A stretch of DNA of 42,065 bases, from the IMG/VR virus record IMGVR_UViG_3300017760_001552, positions 1 to 42,065 of that record. One strand, 5' to 3'. The notes under the pieces are model-generated. The model was not told the origin of the DNA. It did not search any database and was given only the letters and a program-made list of their open reading frames with translations. The position numbers and the translations under genes are program-made. This document shows, one piece after another, positions 18,517 through 34,867 of the stretch (its first letter is position 1; each line of letters starts with the position of its first letter). The stretch is from a virus.

Positions 18517-19119
18517 ATGAAGAAAACTCAATTACCATCCATAATGAAACTAAATGTTAATATAGATTTAGATTTACTTAGAGATAATTGTAACACCCTT
18601 GCTGAAAAGTTTGTTGATGTAAGAACAGCAAATCCAGGGCTTTGTATGAATCATGAAGACCTTGTAAAAGATGTTTACGATAACTTCGAACAGATCAATC
18701 TTACAACACCATCAGAGATACTACCTCACACAACATCTATTAAGGAACGCTTGAGACGCAGAGAAGAACATTTATATAATGTAGCAACCGAGGATTATAC
18801 TGGTAGTTATATTGAAAAGATAGTTACACAGTGTAAAGCACCAGCATCTCGTATTCGTATTACTAAACTTGCACCAGGTAAAACTATTCCATTCCATGTG
18901 GACTATGATGTATCCTATGCGGTACGTTGTATTGTACCCATCTATGGTGATAATAACACTGTTAATCTGTTTAGACGAGACAATAAGGTTGAGGCATATA
19001 ACCTTAAGTGTGGAACTGCCTATTTTTTAAACATCGGCTATCCCCATGCAGTAGTTAACATGAGTGACAAACCACGAATTGCTTTAATGTTTAGTTTGGA
19101 TGGTACAGATGACTTGTGA
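18517..19119 (+). CDS. 2OG-Fe(II) oxygenase, aspartyl-hydroxylase-like
   Basis: The 200-residue protein ends in a double-stranded beta-helix domain. FHVDYD gives the iron ligands H127 and D129, GYPHAVVN gives H177, and KPRIAL gives R187 for 2-oxoglutarate. The layout resembles aspartyl/asparaginyl beta-hydroxylases, which hydroxylate peptides or amino acids. All expected ligands are present, so it should be active. It directly abuts the desaturase and overlaps the next gene by 20 bases. Substrate unknown. Confidence 0.8.
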   Translation: MKKTQLPSIMKLNVNIDLDLLRDNCNTLAEKFVDVRTANPGLCMNHEDLVKDVYDNFEQINLTTPSEILPHTTSIKERLRRREEHLYNVATEDYTGSYIEKIVTQCKAPASRIRITKLAPGKTIPFHVDYDVSYAVRCIVPIYGDNNTVNLFRRDNKVEAYNLKCGTAYFLNIGYPHAVVNMSDKPRIALMFSLDGTDDL

Positions 19120-19897
19120 TAGTAAACAGTATTATAACAAGTCACACCTTTGGCCTATTGCACGTGAAGTACAAATAAAGGGTCACAAGATATTCTACGA
19201 TCAAGAGTTTACTGAACAATCTTACATTGATTATATGAAAGGCTTTGGAGAACTTGAACGACATGAGTTGTTTATGAATTCAAAGGAAGTGCCAGAACTA
19301 TTTTATGTTACTGATAAACGAGATGAGTCTGGACAGAAAATTGGTATGTTCGGTGGTGGCGAATTAGGCTGGCACTCTAATGGTAATAGCAGGCACAAAA
19401 TAGATAAGATATTAATCAGCCTTTATTGTGTAGAAGGTGATCCTAATACTACATTATCTATATGTAATACCTCAGATCCTTTCTATGACTTGTCTGAAGA
19501 GGATCAGGAATACTTTAAGAATATAGTGATTAGGCTTAAATTTAAAAATAATACAATGTATGAGTTAGATGATAACGATCCAGAACTTGAGTTTATGAGT
19601 AAGAACAAAGGTTCTATTCGACCGCTAGTCGGTAGACATCCTCATACAGATAAGTATTATTTTTATTTTCCCTACCATTTTATTTGTAGAGCATGGCATG
19701 GGAAAACTCGCATAGATCATAATGAGCTTATTGAAAGATTAAAACCCATTATCTTTCAGAGCAAATATCAGACACATCATATCTTCCAAAAAGGTGATAT
19801 GCTTCTAATGGATCAATTGACTTCTCTGCACAGACGAACACCTGTGATGGGAGACCGTATGTTATGGAGAGCTGCAGGTGACTATTCGAAAATCTGA
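19100..19897 (+). CDS. TauD/TfdA-like oxygenase with HxN motif
   Basis: The 265-residue protein has the TauD-like order: ELGWHSNG (H92, N94), LTSLHRRTP (distal H244) and MLWRAAGDY (R257 for 2OG). The usual HxD/E iron motif reads HSN, so the carboxylate ligand is replaced by Asn. A paralogous domain in the gene at 20783 has the same change. TauD enzymes hydroxylate sulfonates, herbicides or amino acids; loss of the acidic ligand occurs in 2OG halogenases (as Ala/Gly), so the chemistry may be altered. An internal ATG at 19109 is an alternative start. Confidence 0.78.
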   Translation: MVQMTCDSKQYYNKSHLWPIAREVQIKGHKIFYDQEFTEQSYIDYMKGFGELERHELFMNSKEVPELFYVTDKRDESGQKIGMFGGGELGWHSNGNSRHKIDKILISLYCVEGDPNTTLSICNTSDPFYDLSEEDQEYFKNIVIRLKFKNNTMYELDDNDPELEFMSKNKGSIRPLVGRHPHTDKYYFYFPYHFICRAWHGKTRIDHNELIERLKPIIFQSKYQTHHIFQKGDMLLMDQLTSLHRRTPVMGDRMLWRAAGDYSKI

Positions 19898-20786
19898 ATT
19901 AAGAAACTTTCCATATGTAAATGTACCTAGGTTTAAGTCTGTAGAAATATTACTGTTGGCTCAGACAGCGGCAGATACATATTTTAGCAGAGGTTCTGGG
20001 CAAGCAACAAAAGAACTAGATCACGTTGAGGCTACACATAGGCATTGGGTAAGCCCTATGATTGATCTATCAGATTTTCCATATTGTTATTATACTCACG
20101 GTGTTACTGATGCCATACATCATTGGGAAATGACAGATAAAAGACCATGGCAGAAATTATGTTATGGCGAATATGAATATAGAGATATAATAGGTTCTAA
20201 AGGATCCGTTACTTGTGATGTGCCAGGGCAGTACATGGATAAAGAAACTCACAGAGCTGCACTACCTGGTGTAGTTGATCCTAATAAGCCTTTATATATC
20301 TCAACACCTTCTGCGGCAGATGGTAATATATTTAACGCTCCTGTTGATAGTTGGAAAAACTCACCACCAGTTATATTAGATTGTACTTATGTATCATCCA
20401 CTGCTATTAAAACAATAGAAGTACCTAAGACAACTGAGCAAGTGTTCTTTTCTTTCTCTAAAGGTTTTGGTCTTATTGGTAGTAGATTAGGATTAGTCTA
20501 TACTAAAGAACCACACCCTACTCTACATAGATTAAAAGAATATGAGAACTGGAATTATAGTGGTGTAAGAACGATGCAGCTTTTAATGAATAACTTTGCT
20601 GTAGATTCCATGCATACAAAATATAAAGATAAGCAACTTGCCATTTGTAAAGAATACGATTTTACACCTTCTGATTGCTTTTACCTTGCAACTACACATG
20701 ATAGATACTATACAAGACGCAGACGAATGCGTTGGAATGATTCTGCTAGAATATGCTTAACACCTTTATTTGAGGATTACTTATGA
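19878..20786 (+). CDS. PLP-dependent aminotransferase-like protein
   Basis: A GTG start at 19878 (GGAG at 19867-19870) gives 302 residues overlapping the previous gene by 20 bases. FSFSKGFGLIGSRLG has the Schiff-base Lys at K195 in a class I/II aminotransferase context, and ILDCTY supplies D168 and Y171 expected near the PLP ring. HGVTDAIHHW at about residues 74-83 resembles the small-domain phosphate-binding segment. Typical members have about 380-420 residues, so this is short. It may transaminate or decarboxylate an amino acid made or used by the neighbouring oxygenases. Confidence 0.72.
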   Translation: MTIRKSELRNFPYVNVPRFKSVEILLLAQTAADTYFSRGSGQATKELDHVEATHRHWVSPMIDLSDFPYCYYTHGVTDAIHHWEMTDKRPWQKLCYGEYEYRDIIGSKGSVTCDVPGQYMDKETHRAALPGVVDPNKPLYISTPSAADGNIFNAPVDSWKNSPPVILDCTYVSSTAIKTIEVPKTTEQVFFSFSKGFGLIGSRLGLVYTKEPHPTLHRLKEYENWNYSGVRTMQLLMNNFAVDSMHTKYKDKQLAICKEYDFTPSDCFYLATTHDRYYTRRRRMRWNDSARICLTPLFEDYL

Positions 20787-22249
20787 CTAAACAATTGATG
20801 GATTATACACAGGTAGAGCTTGAGCAATTAACTCAAAAGATTTTAGAGAATGGTCATGCGGTTTTACATGATCAAGATTTAACAAGACAACAACTTGTAG
20901 AAACTTGTAGTCGTTTTGGAGAAATTGAAGAATTGGATTATTTTATGAATCCAAAGGATAGCCCTCAGATAAGTATTGTGTCAGGTAAGGTTGTCGATGG
21001 TAAAGCATTAGGCATGTTTGGACCTACTGAGCTTGAATGGCATGCCAATGGTACTGGTAGATATAACTTTGATGAAATTTGTGTAGGATTATATTGCGTA
21101 GAAGAATGTATTGATACAGTACTGTCGTTGGTAGATCAGTGTAGAGCGTTTGAAGAACTACCAGAGAAAGAAAAAGAGTATTATCGAGCTATTGATATTC
21201 ATCTTGATAATTCTGGACCACGTGCCAGAATATGGAGAAATGATGGAGAGTATTCAAAAGCATATAAAAACCAAGGTGAACAAAATTTTAGAATTGGTCA
21301 AGAACACTACAAAGAAAAGTTGGATCGTAGACCTTTAGTTGCAAAGCATCCAGTGTCTGGTCGTGAATACTTTTATCCTATGTTTATTTACTTAACAAAA
21401 GCATGGCATAATGGTGTAGAGATAGAGGACTTTGAACACTTCTATGAAATTTTAAATAGTAAAATTACCAGATCAAAATATATGAGTCACCATGTGTTTA
21501 GAAAAGGCGATCTACTCTTTATGGATCAGCTCACTACAAGTCATAGAAGGTCTGCTGTTAAGAATAAAGACAGACAACTATGGAGAACAGCATTTGATTA
21601 TAAGAAAACATCAAAGCAGATACCATGGCCAGAGATTAAAACAAAAATAGAGAATGGTCAGAAAGTGCCTCTGAAGGAAGATTATGAATTTAGTGATATG
21701 GCTTATCTTGATTCACCAGAAGCATATGAGCTATTTGAAACTCAAGCAAATATTATTATAGAAAAACAGTGTAAAGGTATTGTTGATGTTGGCTGTAGAC
21801 ATGGACCAGTATTAGATATATTACACTCAAAGGGCTATACTGATTTTGAGTATATGGGATTTGATACTTCTAAAGAGCCTATTGATATAGCAACAGAAAA
21901 GTGGAAAGATCATAGTAATATAGAATTTAGATGTGAGAGTTGGAATGATCCAGACTGTTTCTTTGTTGACTTTGATGTAGATCAAGTGATATGGAGCGGT
22001 GTATTACTATACAGACCAGATGATCACTTTGAGTTCTTTGATAAGATTACAAATAAATTATACTCAAGCCCTAATGCTATCATACAAGAACCTATGCCAT
22101 GGCAAAGACACTGGAAAGCTGGTCTTATTCTAAACACTATTGCAGATAGTATGGAAGAATATAAAGATGCATATAAAGAATTTAAAGAATATAAACTCGA
22201 CCTTGATATATTTGCTGGTCGCAGATTAGTTGCGGATGTTACATTATGA
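20783..22249 (+). CDS. TauD-like oxygenase fused to SAM methyltransferase
   Basis: The 488-residue protein has two domains. Residues 1-275 match the upstream TauD-like gene, with ELEWHANG (H87, N89), distal H254 in TTSHRRS and R268 in QLWRTAFDY, so again HxN in place of HxD. Residues 310-488 are a class I SAM methyltransferase, with motif I IVDVGCRHGPVLDIL at 333-347 and MGFDTS as motif II. The fusion implies sequential oxidation and methylation of one substrate. It overlaps both neighbours by ATGA. Confidence 0.82.
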   Translation: MTKQLMDYTQVELEQLTQKILENGHAVLHDQDLTRQQLVETCSRFGEIEELDYFMNPKDSPQISIVSGKVVDGKALGMFGPTELEWHANGTGRYNFDEICVGLYCVEECIDTVLSLVDQCRAFEELPEKEKEYYRAIDIHLDNSGPRARIWRNDGEYSKAYKNQGEQNFRIGQEHYKEKLDRRPLVAKHPVSGREYFYPMFIYLTKAWHNGVEIEDFEHFYEILNSKITRSKYMSHHVFRKGDLLFMDQLTTSHRRSAVKNKDRQLWRTAFDYKKTSKQIPWPEIKTKIENGQKVPLKEDYEFSDMAYLDSPEAYELFETQANIIIEKQCKGIVDVGCRHGPVLDILHSKGYTDFEYMGFDTSKEPIDIATEKWKDHSNIEFRCESWNDPDCFFVDFDVDQVIWSGVLLYRPDDHFEFFDKITNKLYSSPNAIIQEPMPWQRHWKAGLILNTIADSMEEYKDAYKEFKEYKLDLDIFAGRRLVADVTL

Positions 22250-22830
22250 TATTAGCACTCAGTACCTCACAAGCATCTAACAGTCTCAACTACAGAGGGC
22301 TAAAACTACTCAGCTGTGATTTTGATAGAATAGATTGCTTGGCTGACTATGATATACCTGTAGTAAATGTTAATGGTATGGACGCAGATATACCTAAAGA
22401 TGTTGCTGCTGTATTTCTTATGATGCATCAGTTTGATAAGTTTGTGTTTGCAATACCAGAGTTTACTGGAATGATGAGTTCAAGTACAAAGAACCTATTA
22501 GACTGGGCTGTTGTAATATCAAATATGAATTTAGATCATGGTAAAGGATACCCTTGGACTGATAAACACGTCATACTTCTCACCTTTACTCCGAGTGGAA
22601 AAGAAGGTGGTGGCAGACATATGGAACAGACTAAAGATATATTTAAAAAACTTGGTGCAAATGTTGTATATACAGATGTATCTACATATGGTTGGCATCA
22701 TGTTATACCAGATAACCAAGAACACTTTACTGAGATGTCTGATAAGATAAACAACTATCTACTATATAAAGCAGATAATAAAGAGTATTTTAAAAACAAA
22801 TATAATGATTGGAATGAAAAATGGGATTAG
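22246..22830 (+). CDS. NADPH-dependent FMN reductase-like flavoprotein
   Basis: The 194-residue protein starts MILALSTSQASNSLNYRG, the phosphate-binding segment of flavodoxin-fold reductases, and has FAIPEFTGMMSSSTKNLLDW at about residues 68-87, the characteristic second block. Such enzymes pass electrons from NAD(P)H to FMN or quinones. Within the island it may supply reduced flavin or keep iron reduced. It overlaps its neighbours by 4 and 10 bases. Confidence 0.82.
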   Translation: MILALSTSQASNSLNYRGLKLLSCDFDRIDCLADYDIPVVNVNGMDADIPKDVAAVFLMMHQFDKFVFAIPEFTGMMSSSTKNLLDWAVVISNMNLDHGKGYPWTDKHVILLTFTPSGKEGGGRHMEQTKDIFKKLGANVVYTDVSTYGWHHVIPDNQEHFTEMSDKINNYLLYKADNKEYFKNKYNDWNEKWD

Positions 22831-23225
22831 AAACTAAAGGTTTGTACATACTTAAAGATGATGATTATGTACCTTATAATTTACCAATGGGTAAAGTGAT
22901 TTTATGTGGTGTGCCTGGAGCATTTACACCAGGCTGTACTAAAAGACATCTGCCAGGATTTGCAAAGAATTTAGACAAGTTAGATGCTAAGGTTGTGTTT
23001 GTTGCGGTTAATGATCCGAGTGTCATGCATGCATGGAATGTATTATATGGTCATCCTCACATTGATGCAGTCGCAGATCCATTAGCTGTATTCAGTAAAT
23101 ATATGGGTAAGGATGTTGACTTTGGTGATTATATGGGTATTAGATGTAAACGATATGCTATGCTTATAGAGGATGGTGTATTTGTAAAAGAATATGCAGA
23201 TCCGTTTATTGAAGGTGTATTATGA
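22821..23225 (+). CDS. Peroxiredoxin (Prx5-like)
   Basis: The 134-residue protein has VPGAFTPGCTKRHLPGF, containing the PxxxTxxC peroxidatic active site (Cys near residue 39), and VNDPSVMHAWN typical of Prx5-type enzymes. It reduces peroxides with a thiol donor. Prx5 proteins usually have about 160 residues, so it is slightly short. It may protect against peroxide from uncoupled oxygenase turnover, which is inference from the neighbourhood. ATGA overlap with the next gene. Confidence 0.85.
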   Translation: MGLETKGLYILKDDDYVPYNLPMGKVILCGVPGAFTPGCTKRHLPGFAKNLDKLDAKVVFVAVNDPSVMHAWNVLYGHPHIDAVADPLAVFSKYMGKDVDFGDYMGIRCKRYAMLIEDGVFVKEYADPFIEGVL

Positions 23226-23887
23226 TACCAGGCATTGCAGAGTATGTAGATGTTGATCCTCAGCATGAATTATTACTTGACCTGTATGAAAAAGTAAAAG
23301 GTGTAAGGGCTGGGGAGGACTTTAATGTTTTTGGTAAGACACCATTTGAGAGTTATTCGTTAGAATATAATATGACTGGTAAGGATACTGGTTATGAAGA
23401 AATATATGACCCTATCTTATCTCAGCACAGAATGGTACATCCACATTATCAGTTTAGATCAACTGGATTTAATACTGCTGATAGTACAGAGAAAGATGTA
23501 TTCCCTCATACCGACATAGATCAGAATAGAGAACACAGTCAAGGGTACAATATCATATATCCTGTGCTTGGAGCAAGTCGTTTAGATTATTATGAAACAC
23601 TAGAAGACGAAATATGCCTACCTGAAAAGAACGCTCAAGGATATTATTACTATCATGAGTTTAAAGCTCAGAGTCAGATGGGTCAAGGCACGCCAGAGTT
23701 TGAAAAGTTTTTAGCTGATCGTAAGATTGGTGAGATCATTATTGATAAGCCTTGTCTTATTGATACAGAAGTAATGCATAGAGTAATTATTACAGAGGCA
23801 CCCAGATGTGCATTTGTGACAAGATGGAATAATATACCACCTATTGACTTCCATTCGTTTAAAGAAAGAGTTGAGTCTATATTATGA
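23222..23887 (+). CDS. 2OG-Fe(II) oxygenase-like protein
   Basis: The 221-residue protein has FPHTDIDQ (H96, D98), a long insertion with Tyr-rich YYYYH, then DTEVMHRV (H186) and APRCAFVTRW (R195). This is a complete HxD...H...R facial triad plus 2OG-binding Arg. It does not match a subfamily I can name. It is coupled to both neighbours by ATGA overlaps. Substrate unknown. Confidence 0.72.
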   Translation: MIPGIAEYVDVDPQHELLLDLYEKVKGVRAGEDFNVFGKTPFESYSLEYNMTGKDTGYEEIYDPILSQHRMVHPHYQFRSTGFNTADSTEKDVFPHTDIDQNREHSQGYNIIYPVLGASRLDYYETLEDEICLPEKNAQGYYYYHEFKAQSQMGQGTPEFEKFLADRKIGEIIIDKPCLIDTEVMHRVIITEAPRCAFVTRWNNIPPIDFHSFKERVESIL

Positions 23888-24366
23888 ACTGGCAAACATC
23901 ATATACTATAAATGATGATTTAAAAGAAAAAATATCTAATATATGCAATAAAAAATTAGAAGGTGAGCCAGACGATCAAGAAGTATGGCATAGAACATCT
24001 CATATAACTTTAAATTCCTACACGTGGTCCTTTTATAAAGCAGAGGGGCTTAACGAAGTTAAGGAACAACTTAAAATAATTACAGGCTTAGATACAATAT
24101 ATGAGCATGGATATACATGTATATGGAGATACAACCAAGAGTTTCCAAAGTGTCCAATACATATAGATCATGAAGCTCAACATAAAGGATCTCTTTGTAT
24201 ATCTTTGTCTGGGTACCATAATATATTTTTACATGATATAAAAACAAAAGAAAAACTAGAAAAGATTACTGTGAAAGATAATAGTATTATGTTTATAAAC
24301 AACTCAAAGTATTATCATAGCGTAGAAGGTAACGGCGATCTGTGGATACTAGGAGTAAAGAAGTGA
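23884..24366 (+). CDS. 2OG-Fe(II) oxygenase-like protein, no obvious 2OG Arg
   Basis: The 160-residue protein has PIHIDHEA (H93, D95) and YYHSVEG (H145), consistent with a cupin-type iron site. The position expected to carry the 2OG-binding basic residue reads GDLWILGV and lacks Arg or Lys. It may use another residue or be a non-2OG cupin. It is the fourth oxygenase-like reading frame on the + strand here, counting the fusion as one, after those at 18517, 19100, 20783 and 23222 it is the fifth domain. ATGA and GTGA overlaps tie it to its neighbours. Confidence 0.6.
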   Translation: MNWQTSYTINDDLKEKISNICNKKLEGEPDDQEVWHRTSHITLNSYTWSFYKAEGLNEVKEQLKIITGLDTIYEHGYTCIWRYNQEFPKCPIHIDHEAQHKGSLCISLSGYHNIFLHDIKTKEKLEKITVKDNSIMFINNSKYYHSVEGNGDLWILGVKK

Positions 24367-27750: not shown

Positions 27751-28716
27751 ATGAAAACATTTAAAGGGTTTATAACAGAAATGGCTTCTTTATCTCCAAA
27801 AGAAATGGTAAAATACAAATGGCGTATTGAGGTATTTCTTCGCAAGTATAAATCAAAGGATAAGAAAGAACGCACATTTGAATTAGCAAAAGGTAGTAGT
27901 AAAGTTACCTTTAAATATGAGCCAAAGGTAGCTGCAGTTGTAGCTAAAGGGAATCAAGCTACACTCAGAGATGTTCGTCTAACCGGTGATGATGGTAAAA
28001 CGTATAGAATTAGTGCACTCGGAAAAACTGCAGAGTTTGGTGGTAAGGGTGCTGGATCCGGTACAGCTAAAGAAGATGCTGAACTTGCAAGCTTGCGTAA
28101 ACAATTAAATGATATTCGTACTAAAACAGCTATGGGTTATGTTCCTATAAAAGTTGGTAAAAAGATTTATAATGTTGCAGCTACTGAGACAACACCTGGT
28201 GTACCAAAGTCTGACTTCCATTTAATTGATGTTGATGGTAAAGAATGTGTTTGGATTTCTCATAAAGATGGTAAAGGTCCAAAAGACTTCCAACAATGGG
28301 GCGGTATCTCAAAGAGATCAGAACCTACGATTCACAATCATAAAGAAGTACAAGCATTTATTAATGATTTAAAAACACAATATCCAGATGGCTTACCACG
28401 TGCCACTTCTTTATATCGCAAGATTAAAGATAAGAAATTAAAAAATCTAAGTGTATATGGTAACCAATATGGTAGAGCACTAGGGCGACAGAATACTTCT
28501 ATCCTTATTCAAGGACCAGTAAAGCTGGTTAAGAAAGGTAGAGCATACGAATTCCAATCTAACCATATCCATTATAACGGAGATAAGGTTGACGATTTAG
28601 GATTTGAGCCTGTGTTATCAGCTATCTATAAAGGTGATCGTAGTGATGCTGGAGTAAAAGGTACTAGAATAGTAATCATGCCAATTCAAGGCAGAAAATT
28701 TAAAGGAACAGTTTAA
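27751..28716 (+). CDS. Head-cargo protein with capsid-targeting N-terminus
   Basis: The 321-residue protein starts MKTFKGFITE, close to the T4 internal-protein targeting sequence MKTYQEFIAE, where the prohead protease gp21 cuts after I/L-x-E. The remainder is basic. KSDFHLIDVD followed by ECVWISHKDG at about residues 148-170 could be a D...(D/E)xK-like nuclease core, but this is weak. HNHKEVQAFINDL follows. It heads a late operon of similarly tagged proteins. Packaging is inferred by analogy with T4 IPI-III and Alt. Confidence 0.68.
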   Translation: MKTFKGFITEMASLSPKEMVKYKWRIEVFLRKYKSKDKKERTFELAKGSSKVTFKYEPKVAAVVAKGNQATLRDVRLTGDDGKTYRISALGKTAEFGGKGAGSGTAKEDAELASLRKQLNDIRTKTAMGYVPIKVGKKIYNVAATETTPGVPKSDFHLIDVDGKECVWISHKDGKGPKDFQQWGGISKRSEPTIHNHKEVQAFINDLKTQYPDGLPRATSLYRKIKDKKLKNLSVYGNQYGRALGRQNTSILIQGPVKLVKKGRAYEFQSNHIHYNGDKVDDLGFEPVLSAIYKGDRSDAGVKGTRIVIMPIQGRKFKGTV

Positions 28717-28937
28717 TGGCTTGGGTAGCAATAACAAATAATACAGGTTGGCAATACAATAACGCACCAGCAGATCCTGGTGTAGGTAGCCCTCTTCGAC
28801 CACTGTGGCAAAAACAAACTAATGGTATTAGACAATTTAAAAATGGTACAGAAGTATATGTTGAGGTTCGTAAAGTAGGCGATACTAATAGAACCAGAGG
28901 TGAGATGAGCAAATCTTTTTGGGATAGTCGAACTTAA
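28716..28937 (+). CDS. Small virion-region hypothetical protein
   Basis: A 73-residue protein whose ATG overlaps the previous stop (TAATG). It has a Trp/Asn-rich start (MAWVAITNNTGWQYNNAPAD) and polar C-terminus. It lacks a targeting sequence. I recall similar W-Q-Y-N-rich small proteins in marine phages without known function. Its position in the head-cargo block suggests a structural role. Confidence 0.6.
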   Translation: MAWVAITNNTGWQYNNAPADPGVGSPLRPLWQKQTNGIRQFKNGTEVYVEVRKVGDTNRTRGEMSKSFWDSRT

Positions 28938-28940
28938 CAC

Positions 28941-28969
28941 TTTACTTATTAAAACAAATATGGTATAAT
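28941..28969 (+). promoter_or_regulatory. Sigma70-like promoter abutting ligase-like start codon
   Basis: TTTACT (28941-28946), 17-bp spacer, TATAAT (28964-28969) with TGG before it. The ATG of the next gene is at 28976, only 7 bases after the -10, so the transcript would be leaderless or nearly so. Confidence 0.72.
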
Positions 28970-28975
28970 CCAAGT

Positions 28976-30202
28976 ATGATAACATTTAAAGAAACACTTA
29001 CTGAGCAAAAGAATACTCACATGACACACATCGAGGATAAGGTTCTCTATGGTGGTGTTAAGGGTACTCGTGAAGCTATCTTCGCCCTAAGAGATATGCG
29101 AGACATGCTAGGTGGTAAACACGCTGGTAGTGTATCAGTAAAATGGGATGGAGCACCTGCTATCTTTGCTGGTACAGATCCCCGTGATGGTAAATTCTTT
29201 GTTGCTAAGAAAGGTATCTTTAATAAGAACCCTAAGGTATACAAAACTAAAGCTGATGTAGATGAAGACACAAGTGGAGACCTAGCTGTTAAGCTCAAAG
29301 AGGCTCTTAGATATTTGCCTGCATTAGGTATTAAAGGTATTGTACAGGGCGACTTTTTGTTTAGCTCTGGAGATGTAAAGAAGGAAAAAATTAATCGTGA
29401 AGCGTATCTCACTTTCCATCCTAATACTATTGTTTATGCTGTCCCTGTGGCAAGTGAATCAGCAAAAGCCATTAAAGCAGCCAAAATTGGTGTCGTATGG
29501 CATACCACATATACAGGTAACGACTTTGCCTCCCTTAAAGCTAGTTACGGAGTCAACGTGTCTGCTTTCAAGTCTACAAAGAATGTCTGGTCACAAGACG
29601 CCATGCTAAGAGATATGACAAAGTTTACTATGTCAAAGAAGGAAACAGATGAAGTTAATAAGTACCTCAGTGAGTGCGGTAAGCTATTCAACCAAATCTC
29701 CAGTAGCACACTCAAAGAACTTGAATCAAAGCAAGACCTTGCACAACTCATCGAACAGTTCAACAATAAGTATGTTAGAAAAGGACAGATTGTCAAGGAT
29801 ACATCACGGCATACTGCCATGCTTATACGTTGGATCAAACTTAGGTTTGGTAAAGAAATTAACAAAAGAAAGTCGGAGAGAGGTAAAACCACTCAACGAG
29901 ATAAGTTAAGTGCGACACTTGAATTCTTTTCAGATAAGAATAAAGCAAATCTAATAAAAATGTTTGAATTACAAAAGTTAATGGTACTTGCTAAATTAAA
30001 ACTTATAAATAGACTTAACCAGTTGAGTATGACTAAGGCTTTTGTTAAAACCAAAAACGGATTTAAAACCGTTGGGGCAGAAGGCTATGTTGCAATCGAC
30101 AAACTTGGTGGTGATGCAGTGAAAATCGTTGATCGTATGGAGTTTTCATACAACAACTTTTCACCCAATGTTGTTAAAGGATGGGAAAAGGCAGGTAAAT
30201 AA
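28976..30202 (+). CDS. Polynucleotide-ligase-like head-cargo protein
   Basis: The 408-residue protein starts MITFKETLTE, a capsid-targeting-type sequence with a gp21-like site. VSVKWDGAPAIF has KxDG at residues 56-59, the adenylylated-lysine motif I of the DNA/RNA ligase and capping-enzyme superfamily. KGIVQGDFLF (about 120-129) and IGVVWHTTY (about 171-179) are candidates for motifs IV and V. I recall related phage proteins grouped as DUF6267. It may seal or modify nucleic acid inside or on exit from the head. The start is 7 bases from a promoter -10; M16 at 29021 is an alternative start that would omit the targeting sequence. Confidence 0.68.
   Translation: MITFKETLTEQKNTHMTHIEDKVLYGGVKGTREAIFALRDMRDMLGGKHAGSVSVKWDGAPAIFAGTDPRDGKFFVAKKGIFNKNPKVYKTKADVDEDTSGDLAVKLKEALRYLPALGIKGIVQGDFLFSSGDVKKEKINREAYLTFHPNTIVYAVPVASESAKAIKAAKIGVVWHTTYTGNDFASLKASYGVNVSAFKSTKNVWSQDAMLRDMTKFTMSKKETDEVNKYLSECGKLFNQISSSTLKELESKQDLAQLIEQFNNKYVRKGQIVKDTSRHTAMLIRWIKLRFGKEINKRKSERGKTTQRDKLSATLEFFSDKNKANLIKMFELQKLMVLAKLKLINRLNQLSMTKAFVKTKNGFKTVGAEGYVAIDKLGGDAVKIVDRMEFSYNNFSPNVVKGWEKAGK
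30004..30011 (+). promoter_or_regulatory. Possible internal late promoter element
   Basis: An exact TATAAATA inside the ligase-like gene, 192 bases before the next ATG. It could give extra late transcription of the basic cargo gene, but a chance match in AT-rich coding DNA is as likely. Confidence 0.25.
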
Positions 30203-30565
30203 ATGAAGAATTTTAAGACATTCTTAGAAGAAGGCTCAGGCGTTGACGAAGCGCTATCTATTATGCAGCGAAGAAAAAAGGCTATTAGTCTTCGCAAGAA
30301 CAAAGCTAAGTTAGCTATTGGTCGCAAAAAAGCCGCAAATAAAATAGCAAGTCACGGCGTGTTAAAGAAGCGTGCTCAAAGAGCAGCAAGAAACCAGATG
30401 GTTCGTAAGATTACTAAGGGTATTGGAAAAGGTGATCTAACTAATGCTCGTAAAGCCGAAATGGAAAAACGCTTAGATAAGATGAAACCACGTATTAATC
30501 GAATAGCAAAAAGATTAATTAAAGATGTTCGCAAAAAAGAAATCGCAAGGAAACGTGGTAAATAA
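30203..30565 (+). CDS. Highly basic head-cargo protein
   Basis: The 120-residue protein starts MKNFKTFLEE, a capsid-targeting sequence with an L-E-E cleavage site. The remainder is dominated by Lys, Arg and Ala (for example RRKKAISLRKNKAK and LIKDVRKKEIARKRGK) with few hydrophobics, as expected for a DNA-binding internal head protein such as T4 IPIII. After cleavage the mature protein would bind packaged DNA. ATG immediately follows the preceding stop, and its own stop overlaps the next start. Confidence 0.72.
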   Translation: MKNFKTFLEEGSGVDEALSIMQRRKKAISLRKNKAKLAIGRKKAANKIASHGVLKKRAQRAARNQMVRKITKGIGKGDLTNARKAEMEKRLDKMKPRINRIAKRLIKDVRKKEIARKRGK

Positions 30566-31695
30566 TGAGCGTCCCAAGTTTTAGTCAGTATCTAGTTGAA
30601 GAGGAAAGGTCCGTTTACTTTACGTTCGGACGAATGAATCCTCCTACGATTGGTCATGAAAAGTTATTGAATTCACTAGCAGCTAAAGCTGGAAGAAATC
30701 CATATCGTGTATACCTATCACAATCTCAAGACAAGTCAAAGAATCCTCTAATGTATATGGATAAGATTAAGATTGCAAGGAAGATGTTTCCTAAACATGC
30801 AAGACAAATTCTTATTAATAAGAAAGTTAAGTCTGCCATGGATGTGGCAGTTGCTTTATATAATGAAGGCTTTAAACAGCTTGTTATGGTTGTTGGTTCA
30901 GATCGTATACGTGAGTTTGATATTCTATTAAATAAATATAATGGTAGTAAAGCTCGTCACGGGTTCTATAACTTTGAGAAAATTACAGTATTATCCGCTG
31001 GAGAAAGAGACCCTGATGCTGAGGGTGTCTCTGGTATGTCTGCATCTAAGATGAGAGCTGCAGCTAAAGCAAATGACTTTACTTCATTTGGTCAAGGTTT
31101 ACCTAGAGCAATATCTAACAGTGATGCTAAGAAACTATTTAATAGCATTAGAACTGGTATGAATATTAAGGAAGAAGCATCATTTAAAAATCATGTTGAA
31201 CTTGCTTCAGTATCAAAAGAGCGTGAAGCCTTTGTTGCTGGTGAGTTATTCAGAGAAGGTGATGAGGTTATTATTAAGAAAACTGATGAAGTTGGTACTA
31301 TTACAATGTTAGGTGCTAACTATGTAATCGTAGAGACAGCTGATCGTAAGACACGTCAATGGTTAGATTCAGTAGAAAAGATTGTCGAAGAAGCTAAGTA
31401 TGACTATGGTACAGATGCTTCAGTAAAATATATTAAGAAAACTACACCTGGCCAAAATGAAAAGAAGAATGCAGAAGATCCTGATATTGGTGATCGCAAA
31501 GGTTCTCAGCCAGTCAATTATCATAAAGGGCTCAAGAAGTCAACTAAGGTTGCACGTGATGCTCACTTTAAAAAGAATGCTAAGAAAGCTGATGATGATA
31601 AAAGTGCTTACACACCGGCACCTGGTGATAAAAAAGCTAAAACTAAGCCTAGTAAGTATACAAAAAGATTTAAGCAAATGTTCGGAGATGATTAA
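30565..31695 (+). CDS. Nucleotidyltransferase-like head-cargo protein
   Basis: The 376-residue protein opens with SFSQYLVEE, a variant targeting sequence. Residues 17-200 form a nucleotidyltransferase: FTFGRMNPPTIGHEKLL has the TxGH motif (residues 28-31), and GVSGMSASKMRAA (residues 154-166) matches the ISTT/SGTxxR motif. This is the NMN adenylyltransferase/cytidylyltransferase fold, which joins AMP or CMP to a phosphate. A small beta domain (GTITMLGANYVIVET) and a Lys-rich tail ending KYTKRFKQMFGDD follow. The combination of targeting sequence and enzyme suggests packaging for delivery; substrate unknown. Confidence 0.7.
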   Translation: MSVPSFSQYLVEEERSVYFTFGRMNPPTIGHEKLLNSLAAKAGRNPYRVYLSQSQDKSKNPLMYMDKIKIARKMFPKHARQILINKKVKSAMDVAVALYNEGFKQLVMVVGSDRIREFDILLNKYNGSKARHGFYNFEKITVLSAGERDPDAEGVSGMSASKMRAAAKANDFTSFGQGLPRAISNSDAKKLFNSIRTGMNIKEEASFKNHVELASVSKEREAFVAGELFREGDEVIIKKTDEVGTITMLGANYVIVETADRKTRQWLDSVEKIVEEAKYDYGTDASVKYIKKTTPGQNEKKNAEDPDIGDRKGSQPVNYHKGLKKSTKVARDAHFKKNAKKADDDKSAYTPAPGDKKAKTKPSKYTKRFKQMFGDD

Positions 31696-31931
31696 TGTTA
31701 AAATTTAGCCAATATATTAGTGAAGATGCTGGCAAGTCTCTTGCGGACAAAGCTGCAAAGTCTGGATACAGTGTAGGCAAACTTAAAAAGATTTATAATA
31801 GAGGCGTAGCTGCTTGGAAAACTGGCCATCGTCCTGGGACCACTCCTCAACAATGGGGTCATGCAAGAGTAAATGCATATATTGTTAAAAAGAAATCAGG
31901 TAAAAAACTTAATCACGATACGGATTTATAA
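31695..31931 (+). CDS. DUF5824-like head-cargo protein
   Basis: The 78-residue protein starts MLKFSQYISE, a targeting-type sequence, then has KAAKSGYSVGKLKKIYNRG and WKTGHRPGTTPQQWGHARVN. The second block is the core of the DUF5824 family, as I recall it, found in phage and algal-virus proteins. A start within the previous stop (TAATG) indicates coupling. Function unknown; likely a small packaged basic protein. Confidence 0.72.
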   Translation: MLKFSQYISEDAGKSLADKAAKSGYSVGKLKKIYNRGVAAWKTGHRPGTTPQQWGHARVNAYIVKKKSGKKLNHDTDL

Positions 31932-31933
31932 AA

Positions 31934-33199
31934 ATGGGTAAACAAAGAGAAGCATTTGGACGTGCTAGGTTCAATCAACTATTAAAGAAAAAAGGCATCG
32001 ACACTAATAAGATGCATTCAGACAACGAAAAAGATGCAGCAGCAGCTAAGAAAAGAAAAGATGCAGCTGGAAAAGATTTAGCATCTTTTAGAAAGCAAAC
32101 TGGTATCACTTCTGAATCCGTAAATGAAGGTATTCTTAATAAAAGTACCTATAAGAGCAAGCTTGCTTGGTTTAAGGCACATAAAGAATTAAAAAAGATG
32201 AGAACATCGGTGGCTCCTGAAAAACAGAAAGCCTACAGAAACCTTCTAAATATGTTCTTTCATACATTAGACGATTTTGATCCAAAGATGATGGATAGAT
32301 GGAACACTAAAACTTCTAATAAAAATAACCTTGGTAATGATTCAGTTGCTGATCTAAGATTTGAATTAAAAGATATTTTAGGAAAAGATGCAGGTAAAAT
32401 TATGGAATCGGCAGAACCGATAAATGAAAAAAATTACTTTGGCCACAAAGTTGATCCAGGTAAGTTTGCTACATACATGAAATTCGTAAAAATAAATAAA
32501 CTTGAAGAACCAACTGTTCGCATGATTCAGCAAATGGTTTTTGATGAAAAGGGCAAAAGGCTCTCGACTCCTATGCAATACATGTTAGATAGGTTAAAGC
32601 AAGACCTAAAGAATCCAAAGTATAAACAAGCTTTAAAATTATGGAATGATGCTAGGCTTAATGAATCTGTTTCAGTTAATATAGATGAAGCACTGACTAT
32701 GGTATCTCGTAAGCCACACCCTACAGGTGGTCATATTGTTACCCTTAAAGATAAAGACGGCAAGAAAGTTGTTCGTCATTTACATAAAGGTAAAGTAAAG
32801 ACACTATCTAAAGAAGAAACTGAGCTTGATGAAAAGCGTAACATTAAAATCGCCAAGAGTGGTAAAGGCGAGAGAATGGTTAACAAGCAAGAGCTAAGAA
32901 CATACCTTCAGATGGGCTGGAAAGAAGTCAAAGAAGGCAATGGCCTTTGGGCAAACATTGCTGCTAAGAAAGCACGTGGAGAAAAGATGAGAAAGAAAGG
33001 TGCTAAAGGCGCACCTACAGATGCTCAGATTAAACATGCTCAAAGCACAAGTGAGAGTGTTGAACCTATTACTGAATTAACTGCAAAAGAAAAGCAACTT
33101 GTTAATCAAATGTATGATAAAAAAGGCAATCTAACACCACTTGGTAAGAAAGTTTTTAATCATAACAAGAAGCCTGGTGACAAGGGTTATGTAGAATGA
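31934..33199 (+). CDS. Multi-segment virion protein with repeated protease-like sites
   Basis: The 421-residue protein consists of basic segments joined by acidic linkers ESVNE (61-65), ESAEPINE (158-165), NESVSVNIDE (243-252), ETELDE (295-300) and ESVEPITE (374-381). Most linkers end in an I/L-x-E tripeptide, the T4 gp21 prohead-protease specificity, so it may be cut into several peptides. One segment (about 260-290) has HPTGGHIVTLKDKDG and HLHKG. It lacks an N-terminal targeting sequence itself but directly follows the DUF5824-like gene, which has one. Confidence 0.62.
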   Translation: MGKQREAFGRARFNQLLKKKGIDTNKMHSDNEKDAAAAKKRKDAAGKDLASFRKQTGITSESVNEGILNKSTYKSKLAWFKAHKELKKMRTSVAPEKQKAYRNLLNMFFHTLDDFDPKMMDRWNTKTSNKNNLGNDSVADLRFELKDILGKDAGKIMESAEPINEKNYFGHKVDPGKFATYMKFVKINKLEEPTVRMIQQMVFDEKGKRLSTPMQYMLDRLKQDLKNPKYKQALKLWNDARLNESVSVNIDEALTMVSRKPHPTGGHIVTLKDKDGKKVVRHLHKGKVKTLSKEETELDEKRNIKIAKSGKGERMVNKQELRTYLQMGWKEVKEGNGLWANIAAKKARGEKMRKKGAKGAPTDAQIKHAQSTSESVEPITELTAKEKQLVNQMYDKKGNLTPLGKKVFNHNKKPGDKGYVE

Positions 33200-33483
33200 A
33201 AAGTTTTAAGAGATTCACTGAAGGACGTGGAGCTGATGGCAAAGGCCATTACAGAGCTACAGAAAAAGGTGCTGGTCTCACTCAAAAAGGCAGAGATGCT
33301 ATTAATAGAAAAACTGGTAGCAACTTAAAGGCTCCAGTTACAGGTAAAGCAAAAGCTGGTAGTAAAGCAGCTGGCCGTAGGAAATCATTCTGTGCACGTA
33401 TGGGCGGAATGAAAGGTCCTATGAAAGACGAAAAAGGGAGACCTACTCGTAAGGCTATGTCGCTCAGAAGATGGAAGTGTTAA
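33196..33483 (+). CDS. DUF6321-like basic head protein
   Basis: The 95-residue protein starts MKSFKRFTEG, a variant of the targeting sequence (FTE instead of I/L-x-E). The C-terminal half RRKSFCARMGGMKGPMKDEK followed by MSLRRWKC matches a conserved phage domain I recall as DUF6321, with two invariant Cys (CARM and terminal WxC). It overlaps the previous gene by ATGA. Basic, small and probably virion-associated. Confidence 0.68.
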   Translation: MKSFKRFTEGRGADGKGHYRATEKGAGLTQKGRDAINRKTGSNLKAPVTGKAKAGSKAAGRRKSFCARMGGMKGPMKDEKGRPTRKAMSLRRWKC

Positions 33484-33778: not shown

Positions 33779-34867
33779 ATGAGCGACATAATGTCAAAGT
33801 TGGCGGCTAGATATGCTGAAGTCAACGAAAATAAAAAAATGACTAACCAAAAGGCCCTATCTAAAGCGTCTGCGGCAACACCTGCAGGTAAAGCTGCAGT
33901 AACATTACCTAAGGCACCTTGGGATAAAAAGAAAGAATCAAAAGAAGCCATGGATCCTGTCGATAAAAAGGAACTAAAAGGCAAGCATAAAGATCGTGAT
34001 GACACAGATATTGATAACGATGGCGATACAGATTCATCAGATAAGTATCTACATAAACGTCGTAAAGCTATCTCTAAGAAAATGGATGAAGCTGAAGATA
34101 AAACAACGCCTTGTCCTAAATGTGAAGGTTCTATGGAAAACCATTCTAAGGATTGTCCATCTGAAAAAGAAGCTAAATCAAAAGATGATACAGCTGTGAT
34201 GAATCCTGGCAAGGGTAAAGAAGAACCCAAAATGGAAAAGAATGAGTCATATACATTTAAACAACTTGAAGCTATGTCTATCGAAGATTTGGATTCTCTA
34301 TCAGAATCAATGGATAATGAGCAACTAGATGAGATCCTCGGCACACTAGCCAAAGGTGCAGCTAGCCTTGCAGGTAAAGGTGTAAAGAAAGCTGTTAATA
34401 GATTTTCTGTTTCTGGCAGAGCTGATGCTGCTCAAGCAAAGCTAAAGAAAATGACAAAGAAAAGAAATGATAGAAATCGTTTGAATAAAGCCAAAGCAGG
34501 TATTAGTAAACTTAGGGCAACAAAACCCGTGAGTGCAAGACCTCTTGCTGCAGGTGTAAAGGAAGGTAATGAAATGGCAGAACCAAAATGGCCAGTATAT
34601 GCACGTATCTTAGAAAAAGCAATGGCTCCTAAGAAAGATGCAGAAAAACCTGAAGAGATTGATGCTAAGGATTCAAAATCTTCAAAAGACTTTGTTGATG
34701 ATCACGAAAAAAGTGATGATAAGAAACAAGGTGATAAAGTTGATATCGCAGTAGCAATCAAAAAGAATGCATCTGCTTTAGCTAACCCAATGAAAGCTGC
34801 ACCACTTCGCCCTGGTGATAACAAGCAAGGTGATAAAGTAGCTGATAAACCCGAAGGAAAAATGTAA
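33779..34867 (+). CDS. Virion-region protein with EF-hand-like loop and Cys/His cluster
   Basis: The ATG at 33779 with AAGGAG upstream gives 362 residues. DTDIDNDGDTDSSD at residues 76-89 is an EF-hand/dockerin-type calcium loop followed by a basic helix (KYLHKRRKAISK), and CPKC...H...C at residues 112-126 could bind zinc. A LDE tripeptide at 183-185, a gp21-like site, precedes a basic Ala/Lys/Arg-rich segment (186-260). The C-terminus has KKQGDKVDIAV and the repeated DNKQGDKVADK. Comparable DxDxDGD proteins occur near head genes of marine T4-like phages as I recall. Function unknown, probably head-associated. Confidence 0.62.
   Translation: MSDIMSKLAARYAEVNENKKMTNQKALSKASAATPAGKAAVTLPKAPWDKKKESKEAMDPVDKKELKGKHKDRDDTDIDNDGDTDSSDKYLHKRRKAISKKMDEAEDKTTPCPKCEGSMENHSKDCPSEKEAKSKDDTAVMNPGKGKEEPKMEKNESYTFKQLEAMSIEDLDSLSESMDNEQLDEILGTLAKGAASLAGKGVKKAVNRFSVSGRADAAQAKLKKMTKKRNDRNRLNKAKAGISKLRATKPVSARPLAAGVKEGNEMAEPKWPVYARILEKAMAPKKDAEKPEEIDAKDSKSSKDFVDDHEKSDDKKQGDKVDIAVAIKKNASALANPMKAAPLRPGDNKQGDKVADKPEGKM

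Follow-up and report, generated by a model that had tools for sequence, protein, structure and literature searches.

A gene cluster of a marine T4-like phage probably encodes head cargo bearing T4-type capsid-targeting leaders

Why do six genes in a single cluster of a T4-like phage open with N-termini that resemble the capsid-targeting sequence (CTS) of the T4 internal proteins (IPs)? The question is raised by positions 27751-33483 of IMG/VR virus record IMGVR_UViG_3300017760_001552, a 42,065-base fragment of a T4-like phage that was analyzed over its whole length and is referred to here as the window. A first-pass annotation had placed six such N-termini in this interval, and all six were found there on the + strand, opening reading frames at 27751 (gene A, MKTFKGFITE), 28976 (B, MITFKETLTE), 30203 (C, MKNFKTFLEE), 30565 (D, MSVPSFSQYLVEE), 31695 (E, MLKFSQYISE) and 33196 (G, MKSFKRFTEG). 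From the evidence presented below, we consider it very probable that the cluster encodes head cargo that is loaded via the CTS, trimmed by a protease of the gp21 type and probably ejected together with the DNA.

Each leader was compared with the T4 reference N-termini, MKTYQEFIAE for IPII and IPIII and MKTFKEFTST... for IPI, where mutagenesis ties targeting to residues 4 and 7 and processing to residues 8 and 10 (PMC9026906). A strict pattern, ^M.{1,6}[FY]..[FYW][ILVM].E, was drawn from the T4 CTS literature ahead of testing. This pattern matches 4 of the 60 window genes, where 0.045-0.05 are expected from N-terminal shuffles and four or more matches occurred in 0 of 3000 shuffles. Five genes match when T is permitted at position 7 (0.066 expected), and a scan of 11,692 internal positions in the window proteins finds the core motif a single time. 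Inspection of the individual leaders narrows the earlier statement that all six follow the T4 pattern. Genes A, C and E keep the exact T4 register (three genes, 0.006 expected) with F4 and F or Y at position 7, whereas B combines F4 with T7 and so lacks the second aromatic, and D (SFSQYLVEE) carries the same aromatics shifted by two residues. The [I/L]-x-E that closes the leaders of A to E is absent from G, which has F4 and F7 and therefore the targeting part only; judged by its letters, this sixth N-terminus is a degenerate tag. A relaxed motif with hydrophobics at positions 4 and 7 was dropped after matching 5 virion and 6 non-virion proteins of cyanophage S-CREM2 (p=0.09), and the strict motif was kept because the relaxed one loses specificity.

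The leaders are conserved at their targeting and cleavage positions and vary elsewhere. Among window-like members of DUF6267, the family of B, 99 distinct leaders have E at the cut in 99/99, I, L, V or M at P3 in 99/99 and F or Y at P7/P8 in 98/99; the corresponding counts for DUF6267 leaders of the Melnitz lineage are 56/56, 56/56 and 46/56. In total, 98 strict and 33 near tags were found among the DUF6267 homologues on viral contigs. P-HM2-like DUF6267 proteins (82 contigs) are untagged and begin with MSKNTH, which corresponds to the residue just after the cut. Family A homologues at 55-63% identity are likewise untagged, beginning with MANLS aligned to window residue 11, and at 35-40% identity a tag is present again, albeit a different one. 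For both family A and family B, the start of untagged homologues thus falls at residue 11-12, such that the leader is separable from the body. For D, 160 of 167 homologues on viral contigs carry a strict tag, and the first residues of bacterial adenylyltransferases line up with residue 14-16 of the D model, just behind the tag. A strict tag is also present in 80 of 124 homologues of E, a few of which are fusions beginning with the cytidylyltransferase tag, while the tag is variable among the 154 homologues of C (15 strict, 8 near). Relatives of G have MLNFKKFISEENLEERGADGKG at the place of the window's MKSFKRFTEGRGADGKG, so the full tag is present in relatives, whose leaders read MLNFKKFISE or ISFKKYMVE (MKTFKQYITE in the homologue S-SZBM1_192). 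In the closest complete relative, phage C48C1 (Kyanoviridae; 63.5% identity for the DUF6267 protein), the annotated start of the cytidyltransferase (L003 13448-14857) is internal, and an upstream GTG yields the tag MIKNFSQYLLEE. That is to say, the tag behaves as a module that is gained and lost as a unit.

The protease side of the system was examined in relatives. With its position placed by analogy with T4, the propeptide of the gp23 precursor ends in FLTE in C48C1, LLTE in S-CREM2, ILTE in S-SZBM1 and FLAE in S-SCSM1. Sites of the form [ILVFM]-x-E are enriched in the gp22 proteins of three of these four phages, and C48C1 encodes a head maturation protease.

Virion proteomes of relatives indicate where tagged proteins reside. 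Of the 219 genes of S-CREM2, 52 encode virion proteins (PMC10665884), and all three strict-tag genes of this phage, for an S-adenosylmethionine (SAM) hydrolase, an APH-like kinase and a cytidylyltransferase, belong to this virion set (Fisher p=0.013). Among the near-matches in the set are gp13, gp136 and a Cas9-like nuclease, and gp137, a homologue of G, is in the virion as well. Cytidylyltransferases of the T4-GC190 family, homologous to D, are tagged in all four phages in which they were detected in virions (a slash marks the predicted cut): S-SM1 (MKKFSAFLNE/A), where T4-GC190 is a virion protein (PMC3037559), S-SZBM1 (MRFRQFIIE/A), S-CREM2 (MKNFSSFLTE/A) and S-SCSM1 (MKSFLQFLKE/A). The untagged DUF6267 proteins of S-SZBM1 and S-CREM2 went undetected in virions. 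The S-SCSM1 record labels as virion proteins 7 of 9 consecutive genes of its syntenic cluster (ORF89-97, L358 1358-8307), one of them the tagged NMNAT. Also among these seven are S-SCSM1_90, a distant homologue of A, and S-SCSM1_92, which matches the window gene at 33779-34867 (E=9e-6), as does S-SM1_191. When the three genomes are pooled, 5 of 9 strict matches are virion proteins versus 1.7 expected (P=0.013), with the virion count of S-SCSM1 being a rough count from its record. The S-CRM01 kinase, with the leader MISFDQFLSE, has been reported in virions, as cited in PMC10665884, and the cytidylyltransferase of this phage begins with MKLFNQFFKE. Packaging of the tagged proteins is well supported by this homology. 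A broader proposal, that every phage packages its DUF6267 protein, was rejected, as the versions of S-SM1, Syn9, S-PM2, P-HM2, S-SZBM1 and S-CREM2 are untagged.

Three further observations concern these proteomes. S-CREM2 gp12 (L009 7704-10313), a Cas9-like nuclease reported in virions, has a CTS-like FASFMAE/A some 20 residues into the annotated protein. S-SZBM1_191 and S-SCSM1_30, which lie among the structural genes, belong to a small conserved family and bear clean tags (MKSFKSFLSE, MKTFKQFMSE). A CTS-like sequence also occurs at a C-terminus, where S-SCSM1 ORF93 reads RTFKEFLEYIE.

Taken together, four lines of evidence make head targeting with gp21-type removal, as the first-pass annotation had proposed, the best-supported reading of the cluster: the leaders are conserved, they come and go precisely at the predicted cut, homologues have been detected in virions by mass spectrometry, and the capsid precursors of relatives carry the same cut motif. 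The tagged proteins would be made with a 9-13 residue N-terminal CTS, whose aromatics would anchor the protein in the prohead's scaffold core. The gp21-type head protease would then cut after the Glu of [I/L]-x-E, and the mature protein would stay in the head together with the packaged DNA. By analogy with the T4 internal proteins, for which alone ejection into the host is known (PMC9026906, PMC9391042), the cargo would probably be ejected with the DNA and do its work during the first few minutes after infection.

Several points weigh against this reading. The head genes gp21, gp22 and gp23 lie outside the window fragment, and all virion mass spectrometry comes from relatives of the window phage. 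The virion test is small, with nine strict matches in three genomes, and the S-SZBM1 proteome taken alone gives no enrichment (1 of 4 strict tags in the virion, p=0.45). The convincing tags of S-SZBM1_191, S-SZBM1_192 and S-SCSM1_30 belong to proteins undetected by mass spectrometry. The virion proteins S-SCSM1_89, 90 and 92 of the same cluster lack a tag, from which it follows that the tag is not the sole way in. No report of a neo-N-terminus after Glu was found for any relative. Finally, the strict pattern also matches uvsW of C48C1, probably by chance, and the authors of both the S-SCSM1 and the S-CREM2 proteomes concede that the enzymes they detected may be contaminants.

This last concern can be extended into an alternative, in which the proteins seen in virions would be abundant ones carried along during purification and the leader would serve a different purpose, for instance directing proteins to membranes or to the replication complex. 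The failure to detect some tagged proteins fits such an account. Contamination would not, however, favour tagged proteins, as seen for all three strict matches of S-CREM2 and all four cytidylyltransferases, nor would it spare the untagged DUF6267 proteins, and the leader agrees position by position with the T4 CTS and with the clade's own gp23 cut motif; we regard this alternative as very unlikely. The resemblance might instead be fortuitous in proteins rich in Lys, Phe and Glu. The proteins are indeed Lys-rich, and the uvsW match illustrates what chance can produce, but four matches stand against 0.03-0.05 expected from shuffles and internal positions, and the invariance across 99 distinct leaders leaves coincidence a negligible probability.

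A scaffold role has a somewhat greater claim, although it too is unlikely. Here, the leaders would only tether proteins to the scaffold core for head assembly, and the cargo would be structural or lost at maturation, with none acting in the next host. T4 gp22, gp67 and gp68 are core proteins that are cut by gp21 and mostly removed (PMC9026906), and gp67 and gp68 are absent from cyanophages (PMC2984593), such that the cluster could substitute for them; the basic character of the cluster proteins fits as well. Against this stand the tagged cytidylyltransferases still found in mature virions and the enzyme folds or invariant catalytic-type residues of two tagged proteins, which a pure scaffold would not need.

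One of these two proteins is D (30565-31695, 376 residues, isoelectric point (pI) 9.6; phrog_3041/395), a cytidylyltransferase/NMNAT-like member of the T4-GC190 family whose tag, MSVPSFSQYLVE(E), spans 30565-30600. Its model can be assigned with confidence to the adenylyltransferase fold, with Z values of 12-14 to PPAT/NadD/NMNAT and a fold that starts at residue 14-16. The signature motifs (H/T)xGH and SxSxxR are present as TIGH and SASKMR, and G30, H31, S159 and R164 are conserved.

The other is B (28976-30202, 408 residues, pI 9.8; tag at 28976-29005), a DUF6267 protein of family T4-GC71 (PF19782, E=3e-101). Across 68 sequences with 32-69% identity to the window protein, K56, D58, G59, QGD124-126, E369, VAI372-374, K383 and DR386-387 are invariant or nearly so, and these residues follow the order of ligase motifs I (KxDG), III, IV and V. 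Foldseek by itself found nothing significant for DUF6267, and PDB sequence searches with D and B, as single sequences and as profiles, found no relative. A second-look structural alignment returned five RNA/DNA ligase entries over residues 50-388 with Z values of 6.5, 5.8, 5.4, 5.0 and 5.0, among unrelated rows up to 8.1. Because these values fall below the trust threshold of 8, and the model has a predicted local distance difference test (pLDDT) score of 73.6 with residues 353-408 poorly modelled, the ligase assignment is drawn from the motifs, and the structural rows carry weight only together with them. If the alignment is ungapped at its start, K56 aligns with K87 of TbREL1, residue 148 of the tRNA ligase Trl1 and residue 260 of the S. 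solfataricus DNA ligase, the latter two of which we take to be the catalytic lysines. K87 of TbREL1 is the adenylated lysine (PMC2100368). DUF6267 looks like an RNA/DNA-ligase-type nucleotidyltransferase that has motifs III, IV and V, may resemble these three enzymes in fold (Z 5.0-6.5) and in the placement of the motif I lysine, and differs from them by a long helical insert; its activity is predicted. In S-PM2, a single untagged protein of 591 residues, S-PM2d138 (L192 6992-8767), fuses DUF6267 to a cytidylyltransferase domain.

The remaining tagged proteins are A (27751-28716, 321 residues, pI 9.9; family A, phrog_13937; tag at 27751-27780), the small, very basic C (30203-30565, 120 residues, pI 11.7; tag at 30203-30232), the DUF5824 protein E (31695-31931, 78 residues, pI 10.2; PF19141, E=1.8e-17; tag at 31695-31724) and the DUF6321 protein G (33196-33483, 95 residues, pI 11.4; PF19846, E=8e-24; degenerate tag MKSFKRFTE at 33196-33222). 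All six proteins are thus basic, with pI values of 9.6-11.7. Two genes inside the interval, at 28716-28937 and 31934-33199, lack a tag. The latter encodes 421 residues on the + strand, and one homologue (L032) joins a CTS-like leader, MKSFKSFRLDE, to the same body. Its several internal [I/L/V]-x-E sites (SESVNEG, AEPINEK, SVNIDEA, EPITEL) could be protease sites. Hits obtained with a profile of this protein were discarded, as the profile was contaminated by cytidylyltransferase sequences. The untagged + strand gene at 33779-34867 belongs to the same cluster and, given its labelled homologue, is probably head material. Elsewhere, the window encodes a DNA polymerase, UvsX, a gp41-type helicase and ribonucleotide reductase, with the head module outside the fragment, and megablast of the window against isolate phages gave no match. 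By eye, from the letters of the window, positions 19100-24366 appear to hold a run of 2-oxoglutarate-dependent oxygenase-like genes.

Comparison with known systems separates what is shared from what is new. The T4 proteins IPI, IPII and IPIII resemble the cluster in leader length and spacing, in aromatics at 4 and 7, I/L at 8 and E at 10, in basic proteins and clustered genes, and in a leader that is present or absent as a unit. In contrast, the mature parts share no known sequence similarity, the window cargo is larger and partly enzyme-like, the cut consensus on the window side tends to [FYI][LI][TAS]E, and the phage is of the marine Kyanoviridae type. T4 Alt is likewise an enzyme that travels in the head and is ejected after trimming by gp21, as the window cargo would be, yet Alt is an ADP-ribosyltransferase whereas the window proteins have a putative ligase-type nucleotidyltransferase fold and an NMNAT/PPAT-type fold. 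The ejection proteins of giant phages phiKZ and SPN3US are also head cargo cut after Glu by a prohead protease, and differ, according to literature description, in longer propeptides and another protease lineage. The targeting principle is therefore that of T4, and the new part lies in the families and their unusual cargo. A literature search covering few subscription journals found no paper that applies T4 targeting to cyanophages or to the cluster families, names the cyanophage tag or gives a packaging mechanism. The earlier description of the set as mostly undescribed holds in part, as the virions of at least four cyanophages were already known to contain cytidylyltransferase/NMNAT-like proteins, with their route of entry unexplained.

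These results bear on the biology of the marine T4-like branch in several ways. A head tag would explain why relatives of the cytidylyltransferase recur in purified virus particles, and would supply a mechanism for a repeated puzzle of cyanophage proteomics, in which a cytidylyltransferase, a kinase and a SAM hydrolase were suspected contaminants. According to PMC2984593, cyanomyoviruses either have no gp30 ligase or encode one that has escaped recognition, and DUF6267 is a candidate for this ligase. More speculatively, and only as a tentative possibility, an interchangeable 10-residue tag may serve a widespread branch of these phages to load and inject nucleotide-handling enzymes, of the ligase type (possibly the missing gp30) and the NMNAT type, that seal or repair the incoming genome and also restore nicotinamide adenine dinucleotide (NAD) or disarm NAD-consuming defences before phage gene expression. 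The tag also offers a simple sequence rule by which head cargo could be predicted for some of the ocean's most abundant viruses.

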